DNA from: Streptomyces sp. NBC_01551
Lineage (GTDB): Bacteria; Actinomycetota; Actinomycetes; Streptomycetales; Streptomycetaceae
Direction: 5' to 3'
Assembly: GCF_026339935.1 (NCBI RefSeq)
Contig: NZ_JAPEPX010000001.1
Location: forward strand, 6,351,501 to 6,415,500
DNA: 64,000 bases
Numbering within the stretch: position 1 is the stretch's first letter; each line of letters starts with the position of its first letter. Positions 5,305 through 20,309 of the stretch are shown here, in pieces. A program made the translations under genes and the position numbers. The notes under the pieces are model-generated. The model saw nothing but the letters and a program-made list of their open reading frames with translations, did not search any database and was not told the DNA's origin.

Positions 5305-6471
5305 CTACGGGACGGGCTGCTGCTGGGTGACGCAGTGGATCCCGCCACCGCCCGCCCCCAGGCTGTCGGTGTTGAGCTGCTCGACGGTCCGGCCGGGGAA
5401 GAGCCGCTGGAGCGTCGCCTTGGCCGCCGCGTCGGCGCGGGAGTCGCCGAACTGGGACGAGATGACCGCCCCGTTGCACACGTAGTAGTTGGCGTAGGCG
5501 GCCACGAAGTTCGGGTCGCCGGAGCGGATGAGGTCGTAGTCGGGGCCCTGGAGCTTGGTGACCGAGATGGGGCCGCCCTGCGCGGTCGTGGAGGTCGAGA
5601 GGATCTGGTACTGCTGGCGTGCGTCCTTGGACCAGGCGTCGTTGTCACCCGGAAGGGGCATCTGGACCGTCCCCTGGCCGGGGGAGAGGAACCTGGACGT
5701 CGCGTCGACGTGGTCGTCGGTGATGTCCCGGCCGAGGACGCCCTGGAACCAGATCACCTTCGAAGCCCCGAACGCGGCGCACATCGCGGCCTCGACCTGT
5801 GCCTGGGTGCGGTTGGGGTTGCGGTCCGGGTTGAGGATGCTGCTGCGGGTGGCCATGAGGGTGCCGGCGCCGTCCGTCTCCACCGCGCCGCCCTCGCCGA
5901 TGAATCCGGCGGTGCTGAATGGCACTGAGGCGTAGGCCGCGACCCGGCCGGCCACCAGGGAGTCCTTGGCGTGGGTCTGCTGGTTGCCCCAGCCGTTGAA
6001 GTTCAGGCCGACCGCGTCGAGGCCGCCCGCGCCGTTGGTACGGAACACCGGGCCGCTGTCGCGCATCCAGCAGTCGTCGACCGGGATCGAGGTGATCACC
6101 GTGACGGCCGGTCCGCAGGCGCTGCGCGCCTTCGACGCGGCGGCCGGGTTGGCGCACATCACGACCGGCTCGTACTTCGCGACGGTCTTCGCGATGAGCG
6201 CGATGTTGGACTGGACGCCCGCGAGTTGGCGTCCCCAGATGGCCGAGCTGTCGGGCCAGGCCATCCAGGTCCGGGTGTGGCGGACGGTGTCCACCGGCAC
6301 CGCGAAGCCCCCGGCGGCGGCCGCCGGCAGCGCTGCCGGCCGGGTGGTGGGCCGGGTGGCCGCGAAGGCCTCACCGCCGACCGCCGCCAGCGCGGCCCCG
6401 GCGGCCGTGAGGCCGGCCGCCGCCAGGAACCCTCTTCTGTCCAGCTTCCGGCGCTCGTTGATCTCTGTCAT
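5305..6471 (-). CDS. Tat-exported agmatine-deiminase-family protein 1
   Basis: A 388-residue guanidino-group-modifying enzyme of the bacterial PAD/agmatine deiminase family (PF04371). It carries a Tat signal (DRRGFL, residues 11-16, followed by an Ala-rich core) and probable cleavage near AFA-AT at 37. Family motifs are present: TWMAWP (68-73), DCWMRDSGPVF (133-143), NFNGWG, GEGGAVETDG (192-201), DDHVD with His254 and Asp256, and catalytic Cys380 in GGGGIHC. The expected reaction is hydrolysis of a guanidino group to a ureido group plus ammonia, here outside the cell; substrate unknown. The ATG at 6471 has GGAGA upstream. It is divergent from a TetR gene with a perfect palindrome between them. 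Confidence 0.85.
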   Translation of the reverse strand: MTEINERRKLDRRGFLAAAGLTAAGAALAAVGGEAFAATRPTTRPAALPAAAAGGFAVPVDTVRHTRTWMAWPDSSAIWGRQLAGVQSNIALIAKTVAKYEPVVMCANPAAASKARSACGPAVTVITSIPVDDCWMRDSGPVFRTNGAGGLDAVGLNFNGWGNQQTHAKDSLVAGRVAAYASVPFSTAGFIGEGGAVETDGAGTLMATRSSILNPDRNPNRTQAQVEAAMCAAFGASKVIWFQGVLGRDITDDHVDATSRFLSPGQGTVQMPLPGDNDAWSKDARQQYQILSTSTTAQGGPISVTKLQGPDYDLIRSGDPNFVAAYANYYVCNGAVISSQFGDSRADAAAKATLQRLFPGRTVEQLNTDSLGAGGGGIHCVTQQQPVP

Positions 6472-6530
6472 CTCTGATCTCCGATCAGGCGGGGGTGGGT
6501 CGCTCCACCGATTGGGGCGGAACGTATTAC

Positions 6531-6548
6531 TGACCGAGCGCTCGGTCA
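6531..6548. promoter_or_regulatory. Perfect palindromic operator between deiminase 1 and tetR 1
   Basis: TGACCGAGCGCTCGGTCA is an 18-bp perfect palindrome with 9-bp arms, 60 bp upstream of the deiminase start and 98 bp upstream of the TetR start. A divergently placed palindrome of this size next to a tetR gene is the standard arrangement for an autoregulatory TetR operator. It is unrelated in sequence to the operators at 13.6-18.9 kb. Confidence 0.75.
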
Positions 6549-6646
6549 ATATTTTCGGCACGCCAACTCGCTTTGAAACAAAGGAAGTTGAGGACTCTTG
6601 ATCACTTTCGGCTGTGCGGGGGAACCCTGGTCGTTACAGTGGCGCC

Positions 6647-7453
6647 GTGGCAGCGAACCCGGCAGCAGACGAGGGCGCCCGGCAGGCCGGTGCCGCCCGC
6701 ACCTCCCGCACGTCGGCCAAGGGCGCACAGACGCGCGCCAAGCTGATCGCCGCGGCCCGGACGCTGCTCGCGGGCGACGGCCTCGCACGCTTCAGCACCC
6801 GCAACGTCGCCGCTCTCTGCGGCATCTCGCACGGGATGTGCCACTACCACTTCCAGGACCGCACCGACCTGATCGTGGCCGTCGCCCGGGACATCGGGCC
6901 CGAGTGGATCGGCCCCATGGAAGCCGCCGTCGACGGCCCCGGCCCCTTCTCCGAGCGCGCGGAGCGCGTGATCGCACTCCTGACGCAGCCCGAGGGCCCC
7001 GACCTGTCCCGGCTGCACTCCGCCCTGCACTGGTTCGCCCTCAACGACGACCGGGTCCGGGCCGCCGTGGACGGCGAGTACCGGCGCTGGCGGGAGTGCT
7101 TCGTCCGCCTCTTCCAGGTGCTGGCGGACGAACACGACGGCGCCTTCGACCCCGTTCCGCTGGGCATGGCGCTGGCGGCCGCGGCCGACGGGCTCGCGGC
7201 CATCCAGTCCCTGGACGACCGCGTGCGGACCGAGCCGAGCGTACGCGCGCTCGTCTGCGGCCTCGCCGCGGCGGCGGTCACAGCACCAGCCGCCCCCCTT
7301 ACAACGCCCGGCGCGCGGCGGCGATCCGGCGCGGGTCCCAGCCCGGCCGGGGGACGGACTCCAGCAGCAGCCGGGTGTACGGGTGCTCCGGCGCGGCCAG
7401 TACCCGCTCCGTCGGACCCGACTCCACGATCCGGCCCCGCCGCATCACGATGA
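6647..7453 (+). CDS. TetR-family regulator 1
   Basis: The N-terminal part is a standard TetR DNA-binding domain (about residues 25-75) with helix-turn-helix FSTRNVAALCGISHGMCHYHF, followed by a helical ligand domain to about residue 215. The GTG at 6647 is chosen because a -10-like TACAGT sits at 6635-6640, suggesting a leaderless start; a longer in-frame ATG at 6614 lacks a binding site. The last 50 or so residues are Pro/Ala/Arg-rich and lie entirely antisense to the ABC ATPase gene (155-bp overlap), so they may be junk read past a lost stop. It probably represses deiminase 1 through 6531-6548. Confidence 0.75.
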   Translation: MAANPAADEGARQAGAARTSRTSAKGAQTRAKLIAAARTLLAGDGLARFSTRNVAALCGISHGMCHYHFQDRTDLIVAVARDIGPEWIGPMEAAVDGPGPFSERAERVIALLTQPEGPDLSRLHSALHWFALNDDRVRAAVDGEYRRWRECFVRLFQVLADEHDGAFDPVPLGMALAAAADGLAAIQSLDDRVRTEPSVRALVCGLAAAAVTAPAAPLTTPGARRRSGAGPSPAGGRTPAAAGCTGAPARPVPAPSDPTPRSGPAASR

Positions 7454-8096
7454 CCTCGTCGGTGACGCACCGTACGACGCCCAGGTCATGGGTGATGAAC
7501 AGGTAGCCGATGCCGGTCTCCGCGCGGATCTCGGCGAGCAGGTTCAGGATCTGCGCCTGCACCGACACGTCCAGCGCGGCCACCGCCTCGTCCAGGACCA
7601 GGACCGCGGGCTCGACCGCCAGCGCCCGGGCGATCGCCACGCGCTGGCGCTGCCCGCCGGACAGCTGCCGGGGCAGCGCGTCCGCCTCCCGGGCGCCCAG
7701 GCCGACTTGATCGAGCAGCTCGGTGACCCGCCGGCCGTGATCGGCGTCGGGGAAGTGCAGCCGGAGCGTCTCGCGGAGCGCCCCGCCCACGGTGACGCGC
7801 GGGTCCAGGGACAGGAACGGGTCCTGGAAGACCATCTGCACCTCCCGCGCCCGGGCGAGCCGTTCGGACCTGCCGCGCCGGCGCTCGCCGCGGTCCCGGC
7901 CGTGGACCGCGACCCGGCCCCCGTCCGCGTGCTCCAGTCCCACCACGATCCGGGCCGTGGTCGTCTTCCCCGAGCCCGACTCGCCGACGATGCCGAGGGA
8001 CCCGCCCTCGGACAGCCGGAACGAGACGTCGTCCACGGCCGGGACGCTCCCGTAGCTCCGGCGCAGCCCGACGGCCTCCAGGACGGTCTTCCTCAT
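7299..8096 (-). CDS. Oligopeptide/nickel-type ABC transporter ATP-binding protein (DppF-like)
   Basis: 265 residues. Walker A GESGSGKT at 38-45, the Q-loop region MVFQDPFLSLDPR, signature LSGGQRQR, Walker B leading to LDEAVAALDV (the usual Pro after DE is Ala) and the switch His in FITHDLG. It energises import together with the second ATPase and two permeases. Last gene of a six-gene leftward operon; its ATG overlaps the previous stop as ATGA, and AAAGGAGA lies eight bases upstream. The 3' end overlaps the convergent tetR 1. Confidence 0.88.
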   Translation of the reverse strand: MRKTVLEAVGLRRSYGSVPAVDDVSFRLSEGGSLGIVGESGSGKTTTARIVVGLEHADGGRVAVHGRDRGERRRGRSERLARAREVQMVFQDPFLSLDPRVTVGGALRETLRLHFPDADHGRRVTELLDQVGLGAREADALPRQLSGGQRQRVAIARALAVEPAVLVLDEAVAALDVSVQAQILNLLAEIRAETGIGYLFITHDLGVVRCVTDEVIVMRRGRIVESGPTERVLAAPEHPYTRLLLESVPRPGWDPRRIAAARRAL

Positions 8097-9076
8097 CGGT
8101 GGCTCTCCTTTCGCGACGGGGACACCAGGTCGCCGTGATGGCACGACGCCAGGCGCGCCCCGCCGTCCGCCAGCGGCAGCAGGGCCGGGGCCTGCCGGGT
8201 GCAGAGGTCCGTCGCGTACAGGCAGCGCGCGGCGAAGGGGCAGCCCGTCAGCTCCTCGCGCAGGCTCGGCGGGCGGCCCTCGATGGCGGCGAGCCGGCCC
8301 TGCGGGGCGTCCAGGCGGGGGGTCGAGTCGAGGAGCGCGGCCGTGTACGGATGGCGCGGCCGGGCGAACAGCTCCTCGGCGGGGCCCGTTTCGACGATCC
8401 GGCCCGCGTACATCACGTACACCCGGTCGCTGATGGCCGCCGCGAGCCCGAGGTCGTGCGTGACGAACAGCAGCCCGGTGCCGAAGCTCTCGCGGAGTTC
8501 CCCGAGGAGCGCGACCACCTCCGCCTGCGTCGTGACGTCCAGGGCCGTGGTGGGCTCGTCGGCGAGGATCAGCGCCGGGTCACCCATGAGCGCGGCCGCG
8601 ATCATGACCCGTTGCAGCATGCCGCCGGAGAGCTGCCCCGGGTACGTGCGCAGCGCGGCCGCCGTGAGGCCGACGGCCTCCAGCATCCGCACCGCCCGCT
8701 CCTCGGCGGCCTCCTTCCCCGTCCGGGCGTTGAGCCGCAGGCTCTCGGTGAGGAAGTCGCCGACGCGGCGCATCGGGTTGATGGCGGCCCGGGGGTCCTG
8801 GAAGATCATGGCCGCCGTGCTCGTGCGCAGGGCGCGCAGCCGCCCGGGGCCCATCGCGAGGACGTCGTCTCCGACGACCCGCACCGTCCCCTCCGCCCGC
8901 GCTCCCAGCGGCAGCAGCCCGAGCACGCTGCGCGAGGTCAGGCTCTTGCCGGACCCGGACTCACCGACCAGGGCGACGGTCTCCCGGAACCCGACGGTGA
9001 GATCGACCCCGTCGAGAACGGGCCGGGCCGTGTCGGGCAGCCGCAGCCGCAGCGCCTGGATGTCGAGGGTGTTCAT
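8093..9076 (-). CDS. Oligopeptide/nickel-type ABC transporter ATP-binding protein (DppD-like)
   Basis: 327 residues. Walker A GESGSGKS (38-45), signature LSGGMLQR, Walker B ILADEPTTALDV and FVTHDLG. The C-terminal oligopeptide/dipeptide extension carries a four-cysteine pattern (CPFAARC, then two more Cys in TDLCTRQ and ASCHH) typical of DppD-type subunits. The ATG at 9076 overlaps the upstream permease stop (ATGA) and has AGGAGGG upstream; an apparent 27-residue N-terminal extension lies inside the permease gene and is rejected. Confidence 0.88.
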   Translation of the reverse strand: MNTLDIQALRLRLPDTARPVLDGVDLTVGFRETVALVGESGSGKSLTSRSVLGLLPLGARAEGTVRVVGDDVLAMGPGRLRALRTSTAAMIFQDPRAAINPMRRVGDFLTESLRLNARTGKEAAEERAVRMLEAVGLTAAALRTYPGQLSGGMLQRVMIAAALMGDPALILADEPTTALDVTTQAEVVALLGELRESFGTGLLFVTHDLGLAAAISDRVYVMYAGRIVETGPAEELFARPRHPYTAALLDSTPRLDAPQGRLAAIEGRPPSLREELTGCPFAARCLYATDLCTRQAPALLPLADGGARLASCHHGDLVSPSRKESHR

Positions 9077-9930
9077 CGGTCCCTCCTGGCGACCTTGTCG
9101 GCCCAGCGTTCGCCGACGACGTTGAAGGCGACCACGGTCAGCACGATGGCGACGCACGGCACGATCGCCGAGAGCGGGTAGCCGTACTGGATGGCGGTCT
9201 TGCCGTCGAAGACCATGCGGCCCCAGTCGGGGGTCAGGGCGGGCACGCCCAGGCCGAGGAAGGAGAGGCCGGCCAGGTCGATGAGGGCGTAGCCGAAGTT
9301 GATCGTGGACTGGGCGAGGACGACGGGTGCGACCCCGGGCACCACGTGCCGCAGGCAGATCTGCGGCCCGGAGTGGCCCTGCACCCGGTACGCCTCCACG
9401 TACGGGCGTTCGCGCTCGGCGAGGACGAGGGAGCGGGTGAGCCGGCTGACGTACGGGAGGTACGCGCTGGCCAGGGCGATGACCGGAGCCAGCAGGCCCT
9501 CCCCGTAGACCGACACGATCAGGATGGCCAGCAGCATGCCCGGGAAGGCGAAGACCAGCTCGGTGCTGCGGGACAGGACGGAGTCCAGCCAGCCGCCGCG
9601 CCAGGCGGCGGCGGTGCCGATGGCGACCCCGGCCACGGTGGAGAAGACGACCACCCCGAGCGGGCCGAGCAGGGAGGTACGGGCGCCCAGGACCAGGCGG
9701 GACAGCGTGTCGCGTCCGGAAGCGTCGACGCCGAGGAGGTGCTCGGAGGAGGGCCCCGCCAGCGCGTTGCCGAGGTCGACGGCGTTCGGGTCGTACGGGG
9801 CGATCCAGGGGGCGAGCACCGCGATGACGACGACCACGGCGACGAAGCCCAGGCAGAGCAGGGACAGGGGGGCACGGGAGGTCCGGATCCGGGCGAGCCC
9901 GGGCCGGCGCAGCAGGGTCGTGGCGCTCAT
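9073..9930 (-). CDS. ABC transporter permease (DppC-like)
   Basis: 285 residues with an N-terminal membrane helix (about 22-45) containing the DppC hallmark LAPWIAPYDPNAVDL just after it, HLLGVDASGRDTLSRLVLGARTSL, and a core of five further helices. The EAA-like coupling loop is around EAYRVQGHSGPQICLRHVVP. Forms the inner-membrane channel with the DppB-like subunit. ATGA overlaps at both ends show tight translational coupling within the operon. Confidence 0.88.
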   Translation of the reverse strand: MSATTLLRRPGLARIRTSRAPLSLLCLGFVAVVVVIAVLAPWIAPYDPNAVDLGNALAGPSSEHLLGVDASGRDTLSRLVLGARTSLLGPLGVVVFSTVAGVAIGTAAAWRGGWLDSVLSRSTELVFAFPGMLLAILIVSVYGEGLLAPVIALASAYLPYVSRLTRSLVLAERERPYVEAYRVQGHSGPQICLRHVVPGVAPVVLAQSTINFGYALIDLAGLSFLGLGVPALTPDWGRMVFDGKTAIQYGYPLSAIVPCVAIVLTVVAFNVVGERWADKVARRDR

Positions 9931-10886
9931 GCGGCCCGCTTCCTGGGGCCGAGGGCGACCCGGGGGTCGACCAGTGGATGCAGCAGGTCGACGACGAGGT
10001 TCACCGTCATGAACAGCGCGACCATGATGAGGGAGATGGCCTGCACGGTGGGGAAGTCCTTGGTGGTGGTGGACAGTTCGAGGAGCTGGCCGATGCCGCC
10101 GACGCTGAACGCGGACTCCACCAGGACGGTGGTCACCAGCAGCGTGGAGACGATCAGCCCGCCGGTGGTGAGCACGGTGCCCAGCGCGTTGCGGAACACG
10201 TGGCGCCGGATCACCTGGTGGTCGCGGACGCCCCGGCTGCGGGCGACGGTGACGTGCTCCTGGCCGAGTACGTCGAGCATCGCGGCCCGGGTGACGCGCG
10301 CCAGCATCCCGATCAGGTAGAGCGCCAGCGCGACGGCGGGCAGCGTCAGGTGCCACAGCATCTGCCCCAGGCCCTCGCCGGTGCCCCCGGTGGGGAACCA
10401 GTGCAGTTTCACCGCGAACAGCCCCTGGAGCAGGACCGCGGCCACGAACGACGGCGTGCCGATGGCGAAGGTGGTCGTGACGAGGATCGTCGAGTCGGCG
10501 CCGCCGCCGCGGACCGCGCCGATCCAGCCCAGCAGCAGACCGAGGACGACGACCAGCACCAGCGCCATGGAGATCAGCAACAGGGTGCTGGGCAGCCGGT
10601 CGACCAGCAGCCGGGACACGTCCGTGCGGTACGTGATCGAGCGCCCGAAGTCGCCCCGGAGGACCTGGCCGAGCCAGCGGACGTACTGCACCGCGAACGG
10701 ATCGTCCAGGTGGTACTGCGCGTTGATCGCCCGCAGCGCCTCCGGGGAGGCCGACCGCCCGGCGAGCAGGAAGCTCGCCGGATTGCCGGGCGCCAGGTAC
10801 ATCGCGCCGAAGATGACGAAGGAGGCGCCGAACAGGGTGGCCGCCATCTCGGCCAGCCGCCGCACGGCGAATCTCAGGAAACTCAT
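9927..10886 (-). CDS. ABC transporter permease (DppB-like)
   Basis: 319 residues, six transmembrane helices, starting with FLRFAVRRLAEMAATLFGAS and the DppB-type motif YLAPGNPASFLL. The segment YVRWLGQVLRGDFGRSI and the coupling loop EHVTVARSRGVRDHQVIRRH are characteristic. The ATG at 10886 overlaps the stop of the binding-protein gene (ATGA). Together with the DppC-like subunit it should make the pore. Confidence 0.88.
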   Translation of the reverse strand: MSFLRFAVRRLAEMAATLFGASFVIFGAMYLAPGNPASFLLAGRSASPEALRAINAQYHLDDPFAVQYVRWLGQVLRGDFGRSITYRTDVSRLLVDRLPSTLLLISMALVLVVVLGLLLGWIGAVRGGGADSTILVTTTFAIGTPSFVAAVLLQGLFAVKLHWFPTGGTGEGLGQMLWHLTLPAVALALYLIGMLARVTRAAMLDVLGQEHVTVARSRGVRDHQVIRRHVFRNALGTVLTTGGLIVSTLLVTTVLVESAFSVGGIGQLLELSTTTKDFPTVQAISLIMVALFMTVNLVVDLLHPLVDPRVALGPRKRAA

Positions 10887-12571
10887 CGCGCGGCCGCCCC
10901 GACGTCGGCGGCCCACGGGTAGTACAGGTACGAGATGGTGGTCGGTGCCCCGGTGATCCGCTTGTTCAGGAACACGGCCGTGGGCCACTCCGCCACCGGG
11001 ATCCACAGGACCTGCTCGGCGGCCTTCTTCTGGAGCTGCGCGGCCGCCGCCGTCCGCCGGGCCGGGTCGTAGTCCGCGCGGGCCTTGGCGACGAGGTCGT
11101 CGTAGGCCGGGTCGCTGTAGCCGGCGTAGTTCTGGAAGGCCCCGGTCTGGAAGTTGCTCAGCAGGTCCATCGGGTCGGTGATGGAGTCGTAGTACGTCTC
11201 GGGGAACATGTCCAGGCCCTCGCGTGCCTGGGGGTCGGTGAACAGCGCGGTGAAGGCGTTCGGCGCGATGGTCTTCAGCCGCACGTCCAGGCCGATCTTG
11301 CTGCCGGCCGCCTGCACGGCGGTGGCCAGCAGGGAGACGTCCTGGCCGATCGGGCTCGTGGCGATGGTGACCGTCTTGCCGGTGGCGCCCGCCTCCTTGA
11401 TCAGCGCCTTGGCCTCCTCGATGTTCTGCTCGGGCGAGGGCAGCCCGTCGAAGGCGGCCTTGCGTACCTCCTCGGGGGCCGCGGCCCAGACGGCCTTGGT
11501 GGTGAGCGAGTTGGTGGCGGTGCCCGCGCCGCCCAGGCCCGCCTTGACGAACCCGCGGCGGTCCAGCGCCATGGACAGCGCCCGCCGGACCCGTACGTCA
11601 CCCAGGGGCCCCTTCATGCTGGTGACGTTGACGTTGACCGTGCTGAGCCCCTCGCCGAAGTAGAGCGTGCCGACCCCGCTCTTGCTCAGCCGGTCGTAGC
11701 TCTCGGTGGGGATCAGGTAGCCGCCGTCGGCCTCGCCGTTGAGCATGGCGTTGGTACGGGCGGACGGGTCGGTGAGGAAGGTGAAGACCGCCTTCGCCGA
11801 CTTGGCCTTGCTGCCCCAGTAGCCGTCGAAGCGATGGAGTTCGATCGACTGGCCCTTGTTCCAGGCGCCCAGTTTGAAGGGGCCGGTGCAGTCCAGGCTG
11901 CCGGAGGTGCCGTAGTCCTCGCCCGCCTTCTCCACACCGGCCTTCGAGGCCACCACACCGGCCGCGGTCGCCATGTACTGGGGGAACTGCGAGTCCGGCT
12001 GCTTCAGCTTGACCGTGACCTGGAGCGGACCGGTCTTGGTGAGCGATTCGACGTTGGAGAAGTTGCTGTTCCAGGCCGATCCGCCGTCGGGGTCGAGCTG
12101 GCGTCCCAGGCTGAAGACCACGTCGTCGGCGCTCATCACACCGCCGTCGTGGAACTTCACGCCCGGGCGGAGGTCGTAGACCCAGGTGGTCGGGTCGGGG
12201 TTGGAGGCCTTCTCCGCCAGCCCCGGCGCCACGGTGAGCTGCGGGGTCCACCGCATCAGGCTCTCGCAGACGTTGGACAGGACCGTGTTCTGCGGGTAGT
12301 CGAAGGCGGCGATGTAGTCCAGCGTGGGCGGCTCCGCGTACAGGGCCCAGGTGAAGGAGTCGAGCTCACCGGCGGCCGCGGGCGTACCGGGGGACAGCTT
12401 GAAGGCGGCCGCGCCGCCGGGCGCCGGGCCGTCCTTCGGCGGGCCGGCGCAGGCGGTCGCCAGGCTCAGCGCGGCGACGGCGGCCAGCGCGGCGGCGCGC
12501 AGCGCGTACGTCCGGCGCGTGGATCCACGGGCTCCGGACCGGGGCAGGGAACGCGGCAGGGAACGTGGCAT
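10883..12571 (-). CDS. Family 5 extracellular solute-binding lipoprotein
   Basis: About 562 residues. A basic, Arg-rich start (MPRSLPRS), hydrophobic core and lipobox at SLATAC; the mature protein has SBP family 5 landmarks (LTVAPGLAEKASNPDPTTWVYDLRPGVKFHDG, VRRALSMALDRRGFVKAGL). It delivers substrate to the permease pair. Family 5 binds peptides, nickel chelates, opines or other solutes; the sequence does not say which. Being co-transcribed with a cytosolic agmatine deiminase suggests a guanidino compound, and the nearby urease keeps nickel open as an alternative. The start may instead be six codons upstream at 12589. The gene starts 20 bp after the deiminase stop. Confidence 0.85.
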   Translation of the reverse strand: MPRSLPRSLPRSGARGSTRRTYALRAAALAAVAALSLATACAGPPKDGPAPGGAAAFKLSPGTPAAAGELDSFTWALYAEPPTLDYIAAFDYPQNTVLSNVCESLMRWTPQLTVAPGLAEKASNPDPTTWVYDLRPGVKFHDGGVMSADDVVFSLGRQLDPDGGSAWNSNFSNVESLTKTGPLQVTVKLKQPDSQFPQYMATAAGVVASKAGVEKAGEDYGTSGSLDCTGPFKLGAWNKGQSIELHRFDGYWGSKAKSAKAVFTFLTDPSARTNAMLNGEADGGYLIPTESYDRLSKSGVGTLYFGEGLSTVNVNVTSMKGPLGDVRVRRALSMALDRRGFVKAGLGGAGTATNSLTTKAVWAAAPEEVRKAAFDGLPSPEQNIEEAKALIKEAGATGKTVTIATSPIGQDVSLLATAVQAAGSKIGLDVRLKTIAPNAFTALFTDPQAREGLDMFPETYYDSITDPMDLLSNFQTGAFQNYAGYSDPAYDDLVAKARADYDPARRTAAAAQLQKKAAEQVLWIPVAEWPTAVFLNKRITGAPTTISYLYYPWAADVGAAAR

Positions 12572-12591: not shown

Positions 12592-13614
12592 TCAGCGGGA
12601 GGTGGCGACGGGCGCCGCGGCGGGCACCTGCTGGGTGATGCAGTGGACGCCGCCACCGCCGTACGCGATCACGCGCGAGCGGACGCCGACGACCTTGCGG
12701 CCGGGCAGCGCGGCCGCGATGACGGCCAGCGCCCCCTCGTCCTCGGTCAGGCCCGCGACCGGGACGACGACGCCGCCGTTGGCGACGTAGAAGTTCAGGT
12801 ACCCGACCTCGGTGCGGCGGCCGGCCACCTCCACGAACGCGCTCTGCGGCAGGTCGATGATCTCCAGCGGGCGCCCGGCGGCGTCCGTGGCGGACTCCAG
12901 CACGGCGCGGTTCGCGCGCATCCGCTCGTAGTCGGGGTGGGCGGGGTCGCTCGGGAGCTGCACCACCACCGTGCCCGGGGCGACGAACGCGCAGACCCCG
13001 TCCACGTGCCCGTCGGTCTCGGTGTCCAGCAGGCCGCCGTACGGCAGCCAGATCACCTTGGTGACGCCGAGGCGGGCGATCAGCTCCGCCTCGATCTCCG
13101 CCTTGCTCATCCCCGGGTTGCGGTTCGGGTGGAGCAGACACTGATCCGTGGTGATCAGCGTGCCCTCGCCGTCGACGGTGACGGAGCCGCCTTCGAGGAT
13201 CATGTCGGACGCGACGCGCTCCACGCCGAGGTGCTCCAGCAGGGCGGCCGCGATCTTGTCGTCGGTGTCGTAGGGGTGGTGCTTGCCGCCCCAGGCGTTG
13301 AAGCGGAAGTCGACGCCGGCGCGCTCCCCGTCGGGCCCGAGGACGAAGATCGGCCCGGAGTCGCGGAACCAGGAGTCGTCCAGGGGCAGCTCGACCACCT
13401 CGACACCCGCGCCGCACAGGGCGCGGGCCTCGGCTCCGCTGCCGGGCAGGGCCACCACGGTGACCGGTTCGAATTCCGCGATCGCGCTCGCGACCTGCGC
13501 GTATTCCGCCTTCACCGCGTCGAAGACCTCACCCCACAGCTCCTGGCGGGTGGGCCAGGCCATCAGGCAGCGCTCGTGCTCGGCCCACTCGGCCGGCATG
13601 CGGAAACTCGTCAT
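12592..13614 (-). CDS. aguA: Agmatine deiminase, cytosolic
   Basis: 340 residues with no signal peptide, the only non-exported deiminase in the region. Motifs: RCLMAWP (15-21), SWFRDSGPIF (81-90), FNAWGG, GGSVTVDGEGT, DGHVD with His203/Asp205, and catalytic Cys325 in GGGGVHCITQQ, closest here to canonical AguA (agmatine to N-carbamoylputrescine plus ammonia). ATG at 13614 with AGGAG nine bases upstream. First gene of a six-gene operon with the ABC transporter; operator-like palindromes lie 10 and 73 bp upstream of the start. No N-carbamoylputrescine amidase gene is present in this window. Confidence 0.88.
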   Translation of the reverse strand: MTSFRMPAEWAEHERCLMAWPTRQELWGEVFDAVKAEYAQVASAIAEFEPVTVVALPGSGAEARALCGAGVEVVELPLDDSWFRDSGPIFVLGPDGERAGVDFRFNAWGGKHHPYDTDDKIAAALLEHLGVERVASDMILEGGSVTVDGEGTLITTDQCLLHPNRNPGMSKAEIEAELIARLGVTKVIWLPYGGLLDTETDGHVDGVCAFVAPGTVVVQLPSDPAHPDYERMRANRAVLESATDAAGRPLEIIDLPQSAFVEVAGRRTEVGYLNFYVANGGVVVPVAGLTEDEGALAVIAAALPGRKVVGVRSRVIAYGGGGVHCITQQVPAAAPVATSR

Positions 13615-13686: not shown

Positions 13687-13706
13687 CGAACTGAAAATTC
13701 AGTCAA
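13687..13706. promoter_or_regulatory. TetR operator-like palindrome O2
   Basis: On the minus strand it reads TTGACTGAATTTTCAGTTCG: a perfect left arm TTGACTGAA and a right arm degenerate in its last three bases. It is 73 bp upstream of aguA and 156 bp upstream of tetR 2, so it could control either promoter. Confidence 0.65.
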
Positions 13707-13861: not shown

Positions 13862-14434
13862 GTGTCAGACCGTCGAACAGAAATACTCAGAGCCGCCACG
13901 CGAGTGATCGCCCGCCGTGGCGTGCGCGGCCTTCGCGTGGGAGAGCTGGCAGCCGAGGCGGGGGTCTCCACCTCGCTGATCTACTACCACTTCACCGATC
14001 GCGCCGGGATCCTGCGGCGGACCCTGGAGTTCATCAGCGATCGCGCCGACCGCTACACGGCCGAGCGGGAGCCCGGCCTGGCGCCGGTCGACCCCCGGAC
14101 CGAACTGGCGCAGGTCCTGCTGCTGGAACTCCAGGACACCCCGGAAGTACGCGAGAACAGCACCGCGTGGGGAGAGCTGCGGGCGAGCGCCGTCTTCGAC
14201 GCCGACCTGCGGGAGGACGTCGCCAAGGCCACGCACACCTGGGTCCACGAGATCGCCGACCTCCTCGCCCACGCCCGGCCCACGGGCACGGCTCCGGCGC
14301 ACGCGGCCGCCGCCGAACGCCTGACGGCCCTCCTCGAAGGCCTCAGCGTCCGCTGGCTCAGCGGCTCCCTCCCGCTGGAGCACGCGCGCCGGCTCCTGGC
14401 GGACGCCATCGAGGCCGAACTGGACCACGGCTGA
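13862..14434 (+). CDS. TetR-family regulator 2
   Basis: 190 residues. N-terminal TetR DNA-binding domain with GVRGLRVGELAAEAGVSTSL and recognition helix ending IYYHF (about residues 20-47), then a helical ligand-binding domain with ENSTAWGELRASAVFD. It is a clear paralogue of the regulator at 18272-18847 along its whole length. The GTG at 13862 lies eight bases after a TAGAGT -10-like hexamer (13848-13853) with no Shine-Dalgarno, suggesting leaderless expression; the paralogue has the same geometry. Divergent from aguA and expected to bind O1/O2. Its 3' end is 20 bp from the convergent ureC. Confidence 0.88.
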   Translation: MSDRRTEILRAATRVIARRGVRGLRVGELAAEAGVSTSLIYYHFTDRAGILRRTLEFISDRADRYTAEREPGLAPVDPRTELAQVLLLELQDTPEVRENSTAWGELRASAVFDADLREDVAKATHTWVHEIADLLAHARPTGTAPAHAAAAERLTALLEGLSVRWLSGSLPLEHARRLLADAIEAELDHG

Positions 14435-14454
14435 CGTCCGGAACGCCCCGCCGG

Positions 14455-16221
14455 CTACAGGAAGTAGAGGCGGCTGAGCGAGACCGAGTCGGTGGGCTCC
14501 GAGACGAGCGGCTCGCCGTCGAGTGACACCAGGCCGGTAGCGGGGTGTACGTCGACCGTGCCGGTGCGGGCGTTGCGGAGCATGCTGCGCGGCCCGATGC
14601 CGCGGGTGCCGCGGACGGCGACGCGGCGGCGCCGGGTCGGCATCCGGTCGCTGCCGAGGTTCGCGGCGGCGGCCGAGACGAAGGCGACGGAGATGTCGGC
14701 GGCGGTGGCGCCGTAGGCGCCGAACTGCGGGCCGAGGACCAGCGGTTCGCACCGGTCGGTCGACGCGTTGGGATCGCCGGTGACCCCGTAGGCCGGGAAG
14801 CCCGACTTGAGGACCAGTTGCGGTTTCGCGCCGAAGTAGCGTGGCCACCACAGCACGATGTCGGCGAGCTTGCCGACCTCGATGGAGCCGATCTCGTGGG
14901 CCAGGCCGTGGGCGATGGCCGGGTTGATCGTCAGCTTGGCCATGTACCGCAGGACCCGCTCGTTGTCGTCCCCGCCCGCCGCCGTGCCGTACGAGCCCTC
15001 GCCGTCCAGCGGGCCCAGCTCGGCCTTCATCTTCCCGGCCAGGGCGAAGGTGCGGCGTACCGTCTCGCCGGCCCGCCCCATGCCCTGGGCGTCCGAGGAG
15101 GTGATGCCGATGACCCCGAGGTCGTGCAGGACGTCCTCGGCGCCCATGGTGCCGGCGCGGATCCGGTCGCGGGCCATGGCCGCGTCGCCGGGCAGGTCCA
15201 GCCTGAGGTCGTGCGCCGAGACGATCATGCCGAAATGCTCGCCCAGCGCGTCGCGGCCGAAGGGGAGGGTGGGGTTGGTGGAGGAGCCGATGACGTTGGG
15301 GACGCCGGCCATCTTGAGGACGTTGGGGACGTGTCCGCCGCCGCAGCCCTCGATGTGGAAGGCGTGGATGGTGCGGCCGTCCAGGACGCGCAGGGTGTCC
15401 TCGACGGAGAGGCATTCGTTGAGGCCGTCGCTGTGCAGGGCGACCTGTACGTCGTGCTCCTCGGCCACGCGCAGGGCGGTGTCCAGGGCGCGGGTGTGGG
15501 CGCCCATGTCCTCGTGGACCTTGAAACCGGAGGCGCCGCCCTCGGCCAGCGCCTCGACCAGCGGGGCGGCGTCGGAGGAGGAGCCGCGGGCGAGGAAGCC
15601 GATGTTCACCGGCCAGGCGTCGAAGGCGTTGAAGGCGTGCTTGAGCGCCCAGGGGGAGTTGACGCCGACGCCCCAGACCGGGCCGAACTCCTGGCCGATG
15701 ACGGTGGTGACGCCCGCGGCGAGCGAGGCCTCCATGATCCGCGGCGAGAGCAGGTGGACATGGGTGTCCACGGCGCCGGCGGTGGCGATCATGCCTTCGC
15801 CGGAGACGATCGAGGTGCCGGTGCCGACGACGACGTCGACCCCGTCCAGGGTGTCCGGGTTCCCGGCCCGGCCGATGGCGTGGATGCGGCCCTCGCGGAT
15901 GCCGACGGAGACCTTGCGGATGCCGAGGACGGCGTCGATGACCAGCACGTTGCTGATCACGACGTCGCAGGTCTCGCGGACGGCGGCGGCCTTCAGGTGC
16001 AGGCCGTCGCGGGCGGTCTTGCCGAAGCCGGCCAGGAACTCGTCCCCGGGCTTCTGGGCGTCGTACTCGACCCGGACGGTCAGCCCGGAGTCGCCGAGCC
16101 GGACCCGGTCCCCGGCCCGGGGACCGTGGACCGCGACGTAGTCGTAGGGGTCGCCGCCGTCCGCCGGGACCGCACCGGGGCGGCCGTGGCAGCCCGCCGC
16201 GTCGAAAATGCTGCCACTCAT
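14455..16221 (-). CDS. ureC: Divergent urease alpha subunit
   Basis: 588 residues of the UreC fold. Metal and catalytic residues are kept: His154/His156 (DTHVH), carbamylated Lys234 and His236 (FKVHED), His263 (ALHSD), His289 (AFHIEG), and Asp377 (SSDAQGMGR). The active-site flap that normally reads MVCHHL is VSAHDL here (334-339): the mobile-flap Cys is Ala336, the catalytic His337 remains, the next His is Asp338. The stretch after the first metal site (GQEFGPVWGVGVNSPW, 176-191) also departs from classical ureases. It could hydrolyse urea or a related ureido compound, using nickel. ATGA overlap with ureAB; no ureDEFG in the window. Confidence 0.85.
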   Translation of the reverse strand: MSGSIFDAAGCHGRPGAVPADGGDPYDYVAVHGPRAGDRVRLGDSGLTVRVEYDAQKPGDEFLAGFGKTARDGLHLKAAAVRETCDVVISNVLVIDAVLGIRKVSVGIREGRIHAIGRAGNPDTLDGVDVVVGTGTSIVSGEGMIATAGAVDTHVHLLSPRIMEASLAAGVTTVIGQEFGPVWGVGVNSPWALKHAFNAFDAWPVNIGFLARGSSSDAAPLVEALAEGGASGFKVHEDMGAHTRALDTALRVAEEHDVQVALHSDGLNECLSVEDTLRVLDGRTIHAFHIEGCGGGHVPNVLKMAGVPNVIGSSTNPTLPFGRDALGEHFGMIVSAHDLRLDLPGDAAMARDRIRAGTMGAEDVLHDLGVIGITSSDAQGMGRAGETVRRTFALAGKMKAELGPLDGEGSYGTAAGGDDNERVLRYMAKLTINPAIAHGLAHEIGSIEVGKLADIVLWWPRYFGAKPQLVLKSGFPAYGVTGDPNASTDRCEPLVLGPQFGAYGATAADISVAFVSAAAANLGSDRMPTRRRRVAVRGTRGIGPRSMLRNARTGTVDVHPATGLVSLDGEPLVSEPTDSVSLSRLYFL

Positions 16222-16937
16222 GCCTGCTCGCGCTCCTGCTCCTGGTCCGGAAATGCGGTGAGGTAGCCCGTGGCGCGGGCCTTGGCCAGCGCGGCCTCGC
16301 GTGCGCCGGGGGCGTCCAGGGGGCCGTCGACCAGCCCCGCGAACCCGATCGCGACGCGGGCCCCGCCGATCGGAAGCAGCTCCACCGAGGCGGTGGACCC
16401 GGCGTCGAACCGGACGGAGGAGCCGGCCGGGACCGCGAGCCGGGTGCCGTACGCCGCCGCGCGGTCGAAGGCCAGGCGCGGGTTCGCCTCGAAGAAGTGG
16501 AAGTGCGAGGTGACGCTGATGGGCACGGCCGCCGTGTTGCGCACGGGCAGTCGCAGTGTCGGTTCGGCGGGGTGGTAGCCCGCCCCGTCCCCGGGCAGGG
16601 CCGCGCCCGGGGCGTCGGCGCCCAGCGAACCCCGCTGCCCGAAGGGGTCGTCGACGACGCACAGCCGGGTGCCGTCCTCGAACACCGCCTCGACCTGAAG
16701 GGTGGTCACCACATCGGGAACGCCGGGCAGTACCTCGTCGGCGCTCAGAACGCGCCGCCCCGCCTCGATCGCCTCGGCCAGCCGGCAGCCGTCGCGGGCC
16801 GCTTCGCACACGGTGTCCGCGATCAGCGCCGTGGCTTCCGGCACGTTGAGCTTCACACCCCGCTCACGCCGGGCGCGGGCCAGCTCCGCCGCCGTGAAGA
16901 GCAGCAGCCGGTCCCGCTCGGTCGGTGTCAGTCGCAT
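16218..16937 (-). CDS. ureAB: Fused urease gamma-beta subunit
   Basis: 239 residues joining a UreA-like domain (about 1-100, MRLTPTERDRLLLFTAAELARARRERG and LPGVPDVV) to a UreB-like domain (about 120-230, with ISVTSHFHFFEANPRLAFDR and FDAGSTASVELLPIGG). Gamma-beta fusions occur in several bacteria. It assembles with UreC. It begins 17 bp after the exported deiminase gene ending at 16955 and overlaps ureC by ATGA, so deiminase 3, ureAB and ureC form one operon. Upstream AGG is a weak binding site; coupling to the previous gene may help translation. Confidence 0.87.
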   Translation of the reverse strand: MRLTPTERDRLLLFTAAELARARRERGVKLNVPEATALIADTVCEAARDGCRLAEAIEAGRRVLSADEVLPGVPDVVTTLQVEAVFEDGTRLCVVDDPFGQRGSLGADAPGAALPGDGAGYHPAEPTLRLPVRNTAAVPISVTSHFHFFEANPRLAFDRAAAYGTRLAVPAGSSVRFDAGSTASVELLPIGGARVAIGFAGLVDGPLDAPGAREAALAKARATGYLTAFPDQEQEREQA

Positions 16938-16954
16938 ACTGCCTCATCTGGGAG

Positions 16955-18124
16955 CTACGGAAGGGGTTCGTGCATCGTGGAGCAGTGGATGCCGCCGCCG
17001 CCCGCCATCAGCCGGTCGACGTCGAGCTGGACGACCGTCCGCCCCGGATAGGCCTCCGCCAGGGCCCGCTTGGCGGCGGCGTCCTTCGCCGCGTCACCGA
17101 ACTGGGCGGTGACGACCGCCCCGTTGACCACGTGGAAGTTGAGGTACGAGTCCACGAACTGGGAGTCCTTCGACCGGACGGTGTCGGGGCCCTCGACGCG
17201 GATCACCTTCAGCCGCCGCCCGCGTGCGTCGGTCGCGCCGGAGAGGACGGAGAACTGTTCACGGGCGTCCCGCGCCCACACGTCGTCGCGGTCCGTCGGC
17301 GGGACCTGCACCATGACCACACCCGGCCGCACGAAGCGCGAGGTCACGTCGATGTGGTCGTCGGTGATGTCCTTGCCCTTGATGCCCGGGACCCAGATCA
17401 TCCGGTCCGCGCCGTACGCGTGCAGGACGGCGTCCTCGATCTCGGCCCGGCTCATGCCGGGGTTGCGGTTCTTGTTGACGAGGCTGCTCTCGGTGGCCAT
17501 CACGGTGCCGTCGCCGTCGGTCTCGATCGCGCCGCCCTCACCGACGAAGTCCGTCCTGGTGAAGGAGAGGTAGCCGTCGTCCGCGATGCGCCGGGCGACT
17601 TCGGCGTCACGGGAGTGGGTCTGCTTCCTGCCCCAGCCGTTGAAGTTGAGGCCGATCGCGTCGAGCCCGCCGCGGCCGTCCCGGCGGAAGACCGGCGCGG
17701 TGTCCCGCATCCAGAGGTCGTCCGTCGGGATCGAGTCGAGGACGGTGACCGCCGGGCCGCAGCGGGACCGGGCGGTGGCGGCGGCATCGGCGCCCGGGGC
17801 GCACATCGCCACCGGCTCGTAGCGAGCGATCGTCCGGGCGATCAGGGCGATGTCCTCCTGGACCCCGGCCAGCCGTCGGCCGCCCCAGATGGACGTGCGG
17901 GTCGGCCAGGACATCCAGGTGCGGGCGTGGGGGACGTCGTCCCGGTCCACCCACCAGCGCGGCGCCGCCGCGCTGGCCCGCTGCGGGGCCATGGCGAGGG
18001 CGCCCAGCGCCACACCGGCCGCCCCGACGCCGGCGGCGCCGAGGACGCACCTGCGCGAGGGTTCGGCCGAGCCGCCGAGCAGGCGGCCGAGGAGGGAGCG
18101 GCTGTCGCCGTGGGATGCGCTCAT
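16955..18124 (-). CDS. Tat-exported agmatine-deiminase-family protein 3
   Basis: 389 residues. Tat signal SRRCVL (23-28) plus an Ala/Gly-rich core to about 52. Family motifs: TWMSWP (69-74), DLWMRDTAPVF (136-146), NFNGWG, GEGGAIETDGDGT, DDHIDVTSRF with His257/Asp259, and Cys381 in GGGGIHC. It resembles the first exported deiminase (5305-6471) more than the cytosolic one. The ATG at 18124 follows GGAGAG. First gene of the deiminase-ureAB-ureC operon with the perfect palindrome O3 52 bp upstream, so an exported deiminase and a cytosolic urease are made together. Substrate unknown. Confidence 0.85.
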   Translation of the reverse strand: MSASHGDSRSLLGRLLGGSAEPSRRCVLGAAGVGAAGVALGALAMAPQRASAAAPRWWVDRDDVPHARTWMSWPTRTSIWGGRRLAGVQEDIALIARTIARYEPVAMCAPGADAAATARSRCGPAVTVLDSIPTDDLWMRDTAPVFRRDGRGGLDAIGLNFNGWGRKQTHSRDAEVARRIADDGYLSFTRTDFVGEGGAIETDGDGTVMATESSLVNKNRNPGMSRAEIEDAVLHAYGADRMIWVPGIKGKDITDDHIDVTSRFVRPGVVMVQVPPTDRDDVWARDAREQFSVLSGATDARGRRLKVIRVEGPDTVRSKDSQFVDSYLNFHVVNGAVVTAQFGDAAKDAAAKRALAEAYPGRTVVQLDVDRLMAGGGGIHCSTMHEPLP

Positions 18125-18176
18125 GGGTCTCTCCGGATCTCTTGGGGGGAGGAGGAGGTGTGGCTCGACTCTGCCA

Positions 18177-18196
18177 TTGACTGAAAATTCAGTCAA
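18177..18196. promoter_or_regulatory. TetR operator O3, best copy
   Basis: TTGACTGAAAATTCAGTCAA: two perfect 9-bp arms around an AA centre. It lies 52 bp upstream of the deiminase 3-urease operon, in the gap behind the convergently ending tetR 3. This is the cleanest of four related palindromes (O1-O4). Confidence 0.75.
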
Positions 18197-18271
18197 GGTG
18201 CGGGTCAAACGAAAGCCCGACGCGGCAGGAGCCGGGTCGGGCGAGCCCGCCAGGAGAGTCGGGCGAGCCCC

Positions 18272-18847
18272 CTAGGAGAGTCGGTCGAGTTCGGCCGCGA
18301 TGGCCGTGGCCATCAGCTCGCGCGCGTGCCCCAGGGGCAGGCTGCCGCTCAGCCAGCGCGAGCTGAGGCCTTCCACCAGCGCCGTCAGACGTTCGGCGGC
18401 TCCGGCGAGGGCTGCCGCGCCGGCCATCGGCCGGACCCGGCCCAGGAGCTCGCCCACCTCCTGCACCCATACCAGGGTCGCGCGGGCGAGGTCCTCGCGC
18501 AGATCGGGGTCGAACACCGCACTGGCCCGGAGCTCTCCCCAGGCCGTGCTGTTCTCGCGGACCTCGGGGCTGTCCTGGAATTCGAGGAGGAGGGTCTCCT
18601 CCAGTTCGCCCCGCGCGTCGAGCGGCGGAGCGTCGGGCTCCCGTTCCGTGGTGTACCGCCCGGCCCGATCGTTGATGAACTCCAGGGTCGCGCGCATGAT
18701 CCCGGCGCGATCCTTGAAGTGGTAGTAGATCAACGCGGTGGACACGCCCGCCTCGGCGGCGAGTTCCTCCACGCGCAGGCCGCGCACGCCGCGTCGGGCG
18801 ATGACCCGCGCGGCCCCTTCCATGATTGCTGTTCGACGGTCAGCCAC
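18272..18847 (-). CDS. TetR-family regulator 3
   Basis: 191 residues, a paralogue of the regulator at 13862-14434: the recognition region differs by little (GVSTALIYYHF versus GVSTSLIYYHF) and the ligand domain shares ENSTAWGELRASAVFDxDLRED. The GTG at 18847 was chosen by alignment to the paralogue (both begin xDRRT) and because TAGGGT at 18856-18861 sits eight bases upstream without a Shine-Dalgarno. Near-identical recognition helices imply that both paralogues can read the same operators. It lies between O3 and O4 and may control the urease operon and deiminase 4. Confidence 0.85.
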   Translation of the reverse strand: MADRRTAIMEGAARVIARRGVRGLRVEELAAEAGVSTALIYYHFKDRAGIMRATLEFINDRAGRYTTEREPDAPPLDARGELEETLLLEFQDSPEVRENSTAWGELRASAVFDPDLREDLARATLVWVQEVGELLGRVRPMAGAAALAGAAERLTALVEGLSSRWLSGSLPLGHARELMATAIAAELDRLS

Positions 18848-18934
18848 AAGCCGACACCCTACCCGGGCGTCGATCTCCACCACGACCTCGGTCCTGACCG
18901 AAATTACAGCCGGTTGGGATCCGGCGGGCGGCAA

Positions 18935-18954
18935 TTGACTGAATATCCAGTCAG
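18935..18954. promoter_or_regulatory. TetR operator-like palindrome O4
   Basis: TTGACTGAATATCCAGTCAG: a perfect left arm, and a right arm with two mismatches to the O3 arm. It is 74 bp upstream of the tetR 3 -10-like box and 161 bp upstream of the deiminase 4 start, so it can serve both divergent genes. Confidence 0.65.
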
Positions 18955-19115
18955 TGGCAGAGTGGGGTACATCGCCGCGGAACTCGATGGTCCGTCCCGG
19001 GTCCGCGGCACGGCCGCTGGATCGCCGTGTCGTGTGCCTCGTGCCGACAATGGAACGGACGACGTTCTGCGAGCGCGGCCCTGACCGCTGCCCCTCGGTG
19101 AAAGCCCTCAGCTGA

Positions 19116-20309
19116 ATGCCGGAGCCCTCTGTGTCCCCTTCGCCCCTGTCCTCCCCCCTCTCCCGTCGCACGGCGCTGCGCGCCCTCGCCGGCGGCGCCC
19201 TCGCCCTCGGAGCCGCCGGCTGCGCTCCCTCCTCCGACCCGGCGGACCCGGCCGCCTCGTCCGCCCCCGGTGCGCGCGAGGAGAGCGGCGCGGGGCGCAG
19301 GTTCGGCGCCGAGTGGGAGAGCCACGCCCGCACGTTCATGTCCTGGCCCGCCCTGGAGAACGTCTGGTACGAGGACCTGCCGGCGGTACGGGCCGACATC
19401 GCCCGCGTGGCCCGCGCGGTGGCCGCGTACGAACCCGTGGTGCTGCTCGCCCGCCCCGAGCAGCAGGCGGCGGCCCAGCAGGCCTGCGGTTCCGACGTCG
19501 AGGTGATCGCGCTGCCGGTGGACGACCTCTGGGCGCGCGACACCGTGCCGGTGTTCGTGGAGCAGCCCGGCAAGGGCAAGGCCCTGGGCGTCGACTTCAA
19601 CTTCAGCGGGTGGGGCAACAAGCAGGAGCACCGCAACGACGCCCAGGTGGGTCGGCTCCTGCTCGCGAAGTACGGCATCGAGCGGGTGCGGGCGCCGCTC
19701 GTCGCCGAGGGCGGCTCCTTCGAGACCGACGGCCAGGGGACCCTCCTGGTCACCGAGAGCTCGGTCGTCAACGACAACCGCAACCCCGGCAAGAGCCGCG
19801 ACCGGATCGAGGCCGAGCTCAAGGACGCCCTCGGCGTCAAGAAGGTGATCTGGCTCGCCGGCGTGCGAGGCCAGGACATCACGGACGCGCACGTCGACAG
19901 CCTCGTCCGCTTCACGGCCCCCGGCGTCGTCCTCCTGGACCAGGCGTTCCCCGACTCCCCGCCCGACGTGTGGTCCCGCGCGGCCGACCAGGCGAGGGGC
20001 GTGTTCAAGGACGCGACGGACGCGCGGGGCAAGCGCCTGGAGGTCGTCGACCTGCCCCAGCCCGACCTGGACAAGATCACCGGCCGTGGTGACGCGTTCG
20101 TTTCCACGTACGCGAACTTCTACGTGGCCAACGGCGCCGTCTTCATGCCCCGCTTCGGGGACGCCCGGGCGGACGACCGCGCGAAGGGCATCCTCCAGGA
20201 GCACTTCCCGGACCGTGACATCGTGCCGGTGAAGATCGACACCATCGCCTCGGGCGGCGGCGGCATCCACTGCTCGACCCACGACCAGCCGGGCAAGCCG
20301 ACCGAGTAG
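19116..20309 (+). CDS. Tat-exported lipoprotein of the agmatine deiminase family (4)
   Basis: 397 residues. A Tat motif SRRTAL (16-21) is followed by a hydrophobic core ending in a lipobox, LGAAGC (31-36), so it should be folded in the cytosol, exported by Tat and lipid-anchored. Catalytic motifs: TFMSWP, DLWARDTVPVF, NFSGWG, EGGSFETDGQGT, DITDAHVDS with His259/Asp261, and Cys386 in GGGGIHC. A GTG at 19131 with GGAG six bases upstream is a plausible alternative start and keeps the signal. Divergent from tetR 3 with O4 between them. Substrate unknown; the neighbours suggest a guanidino compound. Confidence 0.85.
   Translation: MPEPSVSPSPLSSPLSRRTALRALAGGALALGAAGCAPSSDPADPAASSAPGAREESGAGRRFGAEWESHARTFMSWPALENVWYEDLPAVRADIARVARAVAAYEPVVLLARPEQQAAAQQACGSDVEVIALPVDDLWARDTVPVFVEQPGKGKALGVDFNFSGWGNKQEHRNDAQVGRLLLAKYGIERVRAPLVAEGGSFETDGQGTLLVTESSVVNDNRNPGKSRDRIEAELKDALGVKKVIWLAGVRGQDITDAHVDSLVRFTAPGVVLLDQAFPDSPPDVWSRAADQARGVFKDATDARGKRLEVVDLPQPDLDKITGRGDAFVSTYANFYVANGAVFMPRFGDARADDRAKGILQEHFPDRDIVPVKIDTIASGGGGIHCSTHDQPGKPTE

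Follow-up and report, generated by a model that had tools for sequence, protein, structure and literature searches.

The window examined here, a stretch of 64,000 nucleotides from the 7.05 Mb, high-GC genome of Streptomyces sp. NBC_01551, carries within the part studied (positions 5305–20309) four deiminases of the PF04371 family (D1–D4), a family 5 ATP-binding cassette (ABC) importer, a fused UreA-UreB subunit (UreAB), a UreC-like subunit that we refer to as UreC′, and three TetR regulators. This gene content, given in a preliminary description of the DNA, is confirmed. On the minus strand D3, UreAB and UreC′ form one tight run, and D2, the solute-binding protein, the permeases and the ATPases form another; D4, TetR1 and TetR2 lie on the plus strand. 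The features are given below in order of position, with PF04371 scores to be read against a curated cut-off of 25.

5305–6471, minus strand: D1, PF04371 deiminase with a twin-arginine signal (PF04371 311.6 bits); the ATG at 6471 was picked as the start, with a palindrome just upstream
6530–6549: palindrome CTGACCGAGCGCTCGGTCAA between D1 and TetR1, a distinct variant of the shared operator, 3 mismatches
6614–7453, plus strand: TetR1, distant from the other TetR proteins
7299–8096, minus strand: importer ATPase, DppF type (oligo_HPY)
8093–9076, minus strand: importer ATPase, DppD type (oligo_HPY)
9073–9930, minus strand: importer permease, DppC type (BPD_transp_1)
9927–10886, minus strand: importer permease, DppB type (BPD_transp_1)
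10883–12571, minus strand: family 5 solute-binding lipoprotein, SBP_bac_5 (PF00496 243.2 bits)
12592–13614, minus strand: D2, cytosolic PF04371 deiminase of the agmatine-deiminase type (PF04371 394.9 bits)
13687–13706: shared operator between D2 and TetR2, 3 mismatches
13862–14434, plus strand: TetR2, with a BetI-type C-terminal domain
14455–16221, minus strand: UreC′, which keeps the metal ligands but is missing the flap Cys and a portion of a loop (PF00449, PF01979)
16218–16937, minus strand: fused UreA-UreB, a gamma/beta fusion (NF009671 308.5, cut-off 243)
16955–18124, minus strand: D3, PF04371 deiminase that carries a twin-arginine signal and heads the UreABC′ operon (PF04371 323 bits)
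18177–18196: exact match TTGACTGAAAATTCAGTCAA to the shared operator, ahead of D3-UreAB-UreC′
about 18272–18835, minus strand: TetR3, start uncertain
18935–18954: shared operator between TetR3 and D4, 2 mismatches
19116–20309, plus strand: D4, PF04371 deiminase, a twin-arginine lipoprotein (PF04371 362.5 bits)

Gene spacing is consistent with the two operons proposed earlier, D2 with the importer and D3 with the urease genes: D2 ends at 12592 and the binding-protein gene starts at 12571, D3 ends at 16955 and UreAB starts at 16937, and the UreC′ start at 16221 lies four bases inside UreAB. Elsewhere in the genome are two further PF04371 genes over the cut-off, D5 and D6. D5 lies directly downstream of a second UreAB-UreC pair (locus L012, 7285–9773), between ilvE-like and cimA-like genes and with a PF02133 permease nearby on the opposite strand, and D6 belongs to locus L013, which consists of a TetR gene and an AguA-AguB-like pair. 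The UreC of L012 is 91% identical to that of the window, and each is only 45–46% identical to the ordinary UreC of this genome, which is part of a complete ureA-B-C-F-G-D operon (L014) holding the one UreD, UreF and UreG set of the organism.

Urease is, in textbook terms, a nickel enzyme with one substrate. When UreC′ is aligned with solved ureases, using the residue numbers of the K. aerogenes enzyme, it keeps the equivalents of His134, His136, Lys217, His219, Asp221, His246, His272, His320, Arg336 and Asp360, and with them the HxH histidine pair, the position of the carbamylated lysine, two histidines, the aspartate and the catalytic flap histidine. What has changed is the surrounding pocket: the flap Cys, neighbour of the catalytic His, is replaced by Ala, Ala363 in the SSDxQA stretch is replaced by Gly, and the GTxATTxTPG loop is shorter by four residues. 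Against the urease alpha equivalog model TIGR01792, which has a cut-off of 680 bits, the ordinary UreC of the genome scores 894.2 and the second copy in L012 640.1, and the other UreC′ proteins scored range across loci L101 (497.4), L118 (610.6), L121 (493.3), L150 (598.5) and L148 (587.7). With the window protein included, all seven UreC′ proteins scored fall below the cut-off, and the one ordinary UreC scored passes it. The function implied by the name "urease" in the preliminary description is doubtful for a window UreC that reaches 619.7 of the required 680.

These changes extend well beyond one genome. Protein searches for UreC relatives took the best 120 matches each, and two sets of loci were compared. 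The nearest loci are the best 80 of 577 confirmed and are biased to near relatives; the other 64 (L097–L160) were picked for their similarity out of 296 genomes sampled across the phylum (40 of the 67 places outside the own genome), 199 genomes sampled from the class (20 of 25 places) and plasmids (4 of 159 records). Three of the remaining class-sample places had already been taken in and two were left out, as were 26 phylum-sample places, all of 44–48% identity. All 80 nearest loci combine Ala or Val at the flap position with the loop deletion, and the 64 sampled proteins divide into 30 that lack the flap Cys together with 4 or 8 residues of the loop and 34 without this combination. With the own genome left aside, none of the 110 rows that have the deletion (80 nearest and 30 sampled) has the flap Cys, and Gly takes the place of Ala363 in 106 of them, the other four, from plasmids, keeping Ala. 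The metal ligands and the His320 equivalent are kept in 30/30 of the sampled UreC′ rows.

The division by active site coincides with a division by neighbouring genes. None of the 30 sampled UreC′ loci has a UreD, UreF or UreG gene within 4 kb, whereas all 34 of the others do, and a UreAB model match (fused, split or partial) stands beside UreC′ in those 30. In a tree made by a quick method from 78 proteins (11 of the 80 nearest loci, all 64 sampled loci and three rows from the own genome), the UreC′ proteins form one side of a single branch with an SH-aLRT value of 100, 43 rows against 35, with L130 and a few others on long branches. Whole genomes were also searched, counting a genome as having only the UreC′ type if it gave one match at E 1e-60 (phylum sample) or 1e-100 (class sample). 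Of 21 genomes, 18 have only the UreC′ type and three have an ordinary UreC as well; UreD, UreF and UreG were found in 0/18 of the former, and all three were present in 3/3 of the latter. The 18 genomes are 81–96% complete by their tables, which means that single losses may be gaps, but this is hardly so for 18 of 18 genomes three times over. Six further genomes of the same genus have UreD near an ordinary urease, one of the matches being below the cut-off. The plasmid search gave four of 159 records with more than 60% identity to UreC′, all of them from Streptomycetaceae.

Two unusual loci deserve mention here. The flap-Cys change alone was considered as a mark of the branch and rejected, as L153, an ordinary-looking urease locus, has Val in this position with a full loop and helper genes; by its loop it is counted on the ordinary side. 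Separately, L138 and L139 encode very divergent UreC proteins accompanied by helper genes, with a GGGSGPKT loop, HPH in place of HxH and a CHNL flap, and constitute a second unusual urease type.

The tie between deiminase and urease-like genes that had been noticed in the window is borne out by their standing side by side in many genomes. A PF04371 gene adjoins UreC′ on the same strand in 80/80 of the nearest loci, with a gap between the matched parts of 20 bases at the median and 855 at most. Within 4 kb, such a gene is found in 9/30 sampled UreC′ loci versus 0/34 other UreC loci (Fisher p 0.0005 with kinship ignored, six of the nine being same-genus genomes). The adjacency is seen in four lineages, the Streptomycetaceae and those of L101, L121 and L148, with the order UreAB-UreC′-deiminase in L012 and L101 and deiminase-UreAB-UreC′ in the window, L121 and L148. 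Among the same-genus genomes with UreC′, the own genome left out, the sole PF04371 gene adjoins UreC′ in 6/6, and three genomes from three other families (G208, G427 and G007) likewise have one PF04371 gene, beside UreC′, and no UreD, UreF or UreG; in these three no AguB-like match was found at E 1e-40. None of the 29 genomes searched, the own genome included, has an AguB over the curated cut-off.

That export of the deiminase is the essential point of the system is not supported by this comparison. By-eye reading of the protein starts does bear out the signals claimed for the window: a twin-arginine stretch and a hydrophobic one are present at the start of D1, D3 and D4, the lipobox LGAAGC is seen in D4 as well, and D2 has neither a twin-arginine signal nor a lipobox. 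However, in 77/80 of the nearest loci UreC′ stands next to a deiminase of the D5 type, and the D5-type starts that were read, in L012 and L121, have no export signal. In L092 it is a D2-type deiminase that follows UreC′, and UreAB, UreC′, D2 and the importer form one run on one strand. Importers are seen in further loci: a divergent one of family 5 is present in L101, and in L150 UreC′ is followed by a PotABCD-like importer whose ATPase scores 358.2 to the potA model TIGR01187 (cut-off 355.6), the PotD-, PotB- and PotC-like parts being below their cut-offs. An ABC ATPase gene follows UreAB-UreC′ in L147, L149 and L150; in L147 and L150 we take this gene to be the first of a PotABCD-like importer, the models having been run on L150.

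A common operator connects these genes with the agmatine genes of the organism. Shared words were sought in promoter regions, and the palindrome TTGACTGANNNNTCAGTCAA was then scanned at up to 3 mismatches. It stands before D2, before the D3-UreABC′ operon, before D4 and before the distant aguA-aguB operon. The window holds 4 sites, one of them the D1 variant, versus a mean of 0.06 and a maximum of 1 in 100 shuffles, and the whole genome holds 9, with 4 for a reversed control pattern. Two of the nine stand before aguA-aguB, and the remaining sites are at 163721, 3132547 and 3619040. The operator recurs at the promoters of orthologous genes in L017, L018 and L092, where in L092 a copy lies between UreC′ and D2; among L012–L015 and L017–L160 it was found only in these three and in L013, the reversed control pattern giving 5 matches. 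A scan of the main D5 locus with the same tolerance gave no copy. The regulators are also related, in that TetR2, TetR3 and the TetR of the aguAB locus share 59–73% identity (73% for TetR2 and TetR3, 64% for TetR2 and the TetR beside aguAB), with TetR1 distant. The common operator and the similarity of these TetR proteins bear out the idea of a shared regulon and suggest that the deiminase, importer, UreC and agmatine genes answer the same signal; at the level of sequence, the window genes and the distant aguAB genes appear to form one real regulon.

Two details of these elements can be added. The site at 163721 (C1:163721; L171 4722) is a strong copy of the operator, with 2 mismatches, that lies away from any known deiminase; on one side of it is a large gene for a membrane protein and on the other a small gene without a name, and no link to the system was seen. 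The genes of TetR1 and of the importer ATPase, which lie on opposite strands, have about 150 bases in common (7299–7453), and the called genes in L092 do not overlap.

The deiminases differ in ways that bear on their substrates. In alignment, the active-site Cys, His and Asp of PF04371 are present in all four window proteins. None reaches the cut-off of 381.8 for the AguA equivalog TIGR03380 (D2 344.1, D4 256.3, D1 234.7, D3 228.3), and the AguB-linked D6 is also below it at 313.3. In MtAIH, Asp220 holds the amine of agmatine (PMC6447857). At the aligned position D2 and D6, which are 67% identical, have Glu and the deiminase of L148 has Asp; D1, D3 and D4 have Ile, and D5, L121, L101 and all 59 of the 85 D5-type rows in which this stretch was compared have Gly. 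The acidic residue of D2 therefore fits agmatine. As for the importer, its binding protein falls below the cut-off of all 11 NCBIfam models with matches, the best being NikA-like at 124 versus 600, and a role as a nickel importer for the urease is accordingly not favoured, even though the NikA models score best.

Taken together, these observations lead us to read the region as a regulon for breaking down a guanidino compound from outside the cell, probably agmatine or something closely related, in which UreC′ hydrolyses a substituted urea; we give this reading about an even chance of being correct. The family 5 importer would bring the guanidino compound into the cell, D2 would convert its guanidino group to a ureido group (for agmatine, giving N-carbamoylputrescine), and UreAB-UreC′ would cut the N-substituted urea to an amine, CO2 and ammonia, taking the place held by AguB in the aguA-aguB operon of the genome. 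The exported deiminases may perform the first step outside the cell. UreC′ itself would be a urease-derived hydrolase of substituted ureas distinct from the housekeeping urease, with a metal site filled without UreD, UreF or UreG. In this scheme we infer the substrates, the direction of transport, the metal and even that UreC′ is active at all. Its most likely substrate is an N-substituted urea made by a deiminase, N-carbamoylputrescine or a relative of it; the polyamine-type importer in L150 and the operator shared with aguAB both point to N-carbamoylputrescine. The preliminary description had left open whether urea or a ureide feeds the urease, and because the active site of UreC′ is altered, the ureide is favoured over urea.

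Several observations weigh against this reading, or at least against its generality. Among the 18 genomes with only the UreC′ type, 13 have no PF04371 gene, and two more of the 18 (G449 and G106) have one away from UreC′, so UreC′ has other uses; next to it in such genomes lies a glycerate kinase gene, an alpha/beta hydrolase gene or no informative neighbour, and one genome of the same genus (G107) has the deiminase without UreC′. The deiminases linked to UreC′ in the main Streptomyces locus (D5), in L121 and L101 (all with Gly) and in the window (D3, with Ile) lack the amine-binding Asp, and therefore agmatine need not be their substrate. Six of the 34 other UreC proteins have Gly at the place of Ala363 and three gaps in the loop, which indicates that the differences of UreC′ are graded and not unique to the branch. 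In a Bacillus subtilis control the urease alpha domain was matched and UreD and UreF were not; a urease can thus lack the helpers, and their absence is suggestive, but not proof, of another function or metal. Finally, an AguB-like gene already stands next to D6 in this genome, so no further enzyme is needed for that step. That gene scores 241.4 to TIGR03381, below the cut-off of 410.25, and the call is based on score and neighbour; on this basis we rejected the idea that the organism has no AguB at all. No carbamoylputrescine amidase gene lies beside the deiminases in the window region read, so the earlier statement that there is none is correct for the window but not for the genome, and the idea that its absence leaves a gap is not supported for an organism that has an AguA-AguB-like pair elsewhere under the same operator.

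The observations can also be read in other ways. UreABC′ could be a true urease, with the deiminases acting on free guanidine or another urea-yielding compound to give ammonia via urea. Deimination of guanidine would give urea, the metal ligands and the equivalents of the catalytic His320 and of Arg336 are all kept, and the amine-binding acid is missing from some of the deiminases linked to UreC′, a change that a small substrate might tolerate. We nonetheless consider this unlikely in view of a pocket that has lost the flap Cys in 110/110 rows and has Gly for Ala363 in 106/110 (a change that 6/34 of the other rows share), of the scores below the urease cut-off for the window UreC and 6/6 further UreC′ proteins, and of the complete ordinary ureABCFGD operon in the same genome. 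Another reading holds that UreC′ no longer hydrolyses ureas, given that the flap Cys and part of the loop are lost; a relict, or a structural or regulatory part, would nevertheless hardly be expected to keep its metal ligands and the His320 equivalent in 30/30 sampled rows over deep divergence, with a UreAB match beside it in the sampled loci, and we regard this as very improbable.

A further possibility, which we consider doubtful, is that UreABC′ acts on a different ureido compound, such as a ureido acid derived from guanidinobutyrate or creatine or a ureide of purine breakdown, with D5 as the matching deiminase and the tie to agmatine secondary. The absence of the amine-binding acid from D5 and the PF02133 permease (of the cytosine, purine or allantoin type) near D5 in L012 and many relatives are consistent with this, as are a glycerate kinase gene after UreC′ in L126 and, by resemblance, in L124, L128 and L129, and a 66–68% identical UreC′ in a peptide-synthetase cluster on three annotated plasmids. 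Arguing against it, the operator of the window copy is also that of aguA-aguB, and the deiminases in line with UreC′ in L092 and L148 do carry the acid. Whichever compound is used in the window, the common denominator of the UreC′ loci may be "substituted ureas" and not one compound.

Both of the last settings are worth describing in their own right. The glycerate kinase of L126 was identified by PF02595 and those of L124, L128 and L129 by resemblance of their starts, and their presence hints at ureide or glyoxylate metabolism. The plasmid relatives number four (L117–L120, at about 7250–10600), with UreAB adjoining; on the three annotated plasmids the gene lies inside the peptide-synthetase cluster, possibly as a tailoring enzyme, and its neighbours include APH-type kinases, a weakly B12-binding-like protein and a 2OG oxygenase (by Pfam on L118 and one L117 gene). 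This location suggests a substrate larger than urea.

It is informative to set the proposed system beside those already known. With the bacterial nickel urease (UreABC with UreD, UreE, UreF and UreG), UreC′ shares its subunit make-up, the PF00449 and PF01979 domains, the metal ligands and the catalytic histidine. However, it has no flap Cys, has a shortened active-site loop, scores below TIGR01792, and is without UreD, UreF and UreG both within 4 kb and anywhere in the 18 genomes with only this type. The family 5 importer likewise has the PF00496 binding protein and OppB/C/D/F-like parts of the peptide and nickel importers, although its binding protein reaches no NCBIfam cut-off. With the AguA-AguB pathway the system shares the first enzyme (D2), an adjoining TetR gene and the operator of the organism's own aguA-aguB-like operon; the second enzyme here would be a metalloenzyme of the urease family, whereas AguB belongs to the nitrilase family. 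A non-homologous stand-in for AguB after agmatine deiminase has a precedent in AguY, an N-carbamoylputrescine amidohydrolase, possibly derived from GatA, that is described as occurring also in Actinomycetota (PMC12283126); AguY resembles GatA-type amidases, unlike the urease-family UreC′. The same paper names agmatinase, transcarbamylase, AguB and AguY for routes to putrescine, and the word "urease" occurs 0 times in its main text.

In Streptomyces coelicolor, SCO5525-SCO5526 is described as a cluster of ure(AB)C only, the second urease cluster (PMC2492869), and is listed among urea-utilising genes, with SCO5527 as a homologue from the arginine decarboxylase pathway (PMC3293853). The neighbouring gene numbers and the gene order suggest that L012 is the counterpart of SCO5525-SCO5526. 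The pair is treated as a urease in both papers, and a deiminase partner and an altered site are not discussed in their available text. A search of titles and abstract openings, with subscription journals mostly outside its scope, found no earlier report of a urease-like N-carbamoylputrescine hydrolase among the papers listed.

We put forward tentatively, as possible but short of an even chance, that UreAB-UreC′ represents a branch that hydrolyses N-substituted ureas without nickel helpers and that provides an additional way of making putrescine from N-carbamoylputrescine, alongside AguB, transcarbamylase and AguY. If this is true, the breakdown of polyamines and guanidines would gain a new enzyme and a new step, the name "urease subunit alpha" would be wrong for many of the Streptomyces proteins that now bear it, and the annotation of a widespread Streptomyces locus would be corrected. 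The kept metal site, the absence of helper genes and the deiminases that often stand alongside would show that the urease scaffold has been turned to other ureas.

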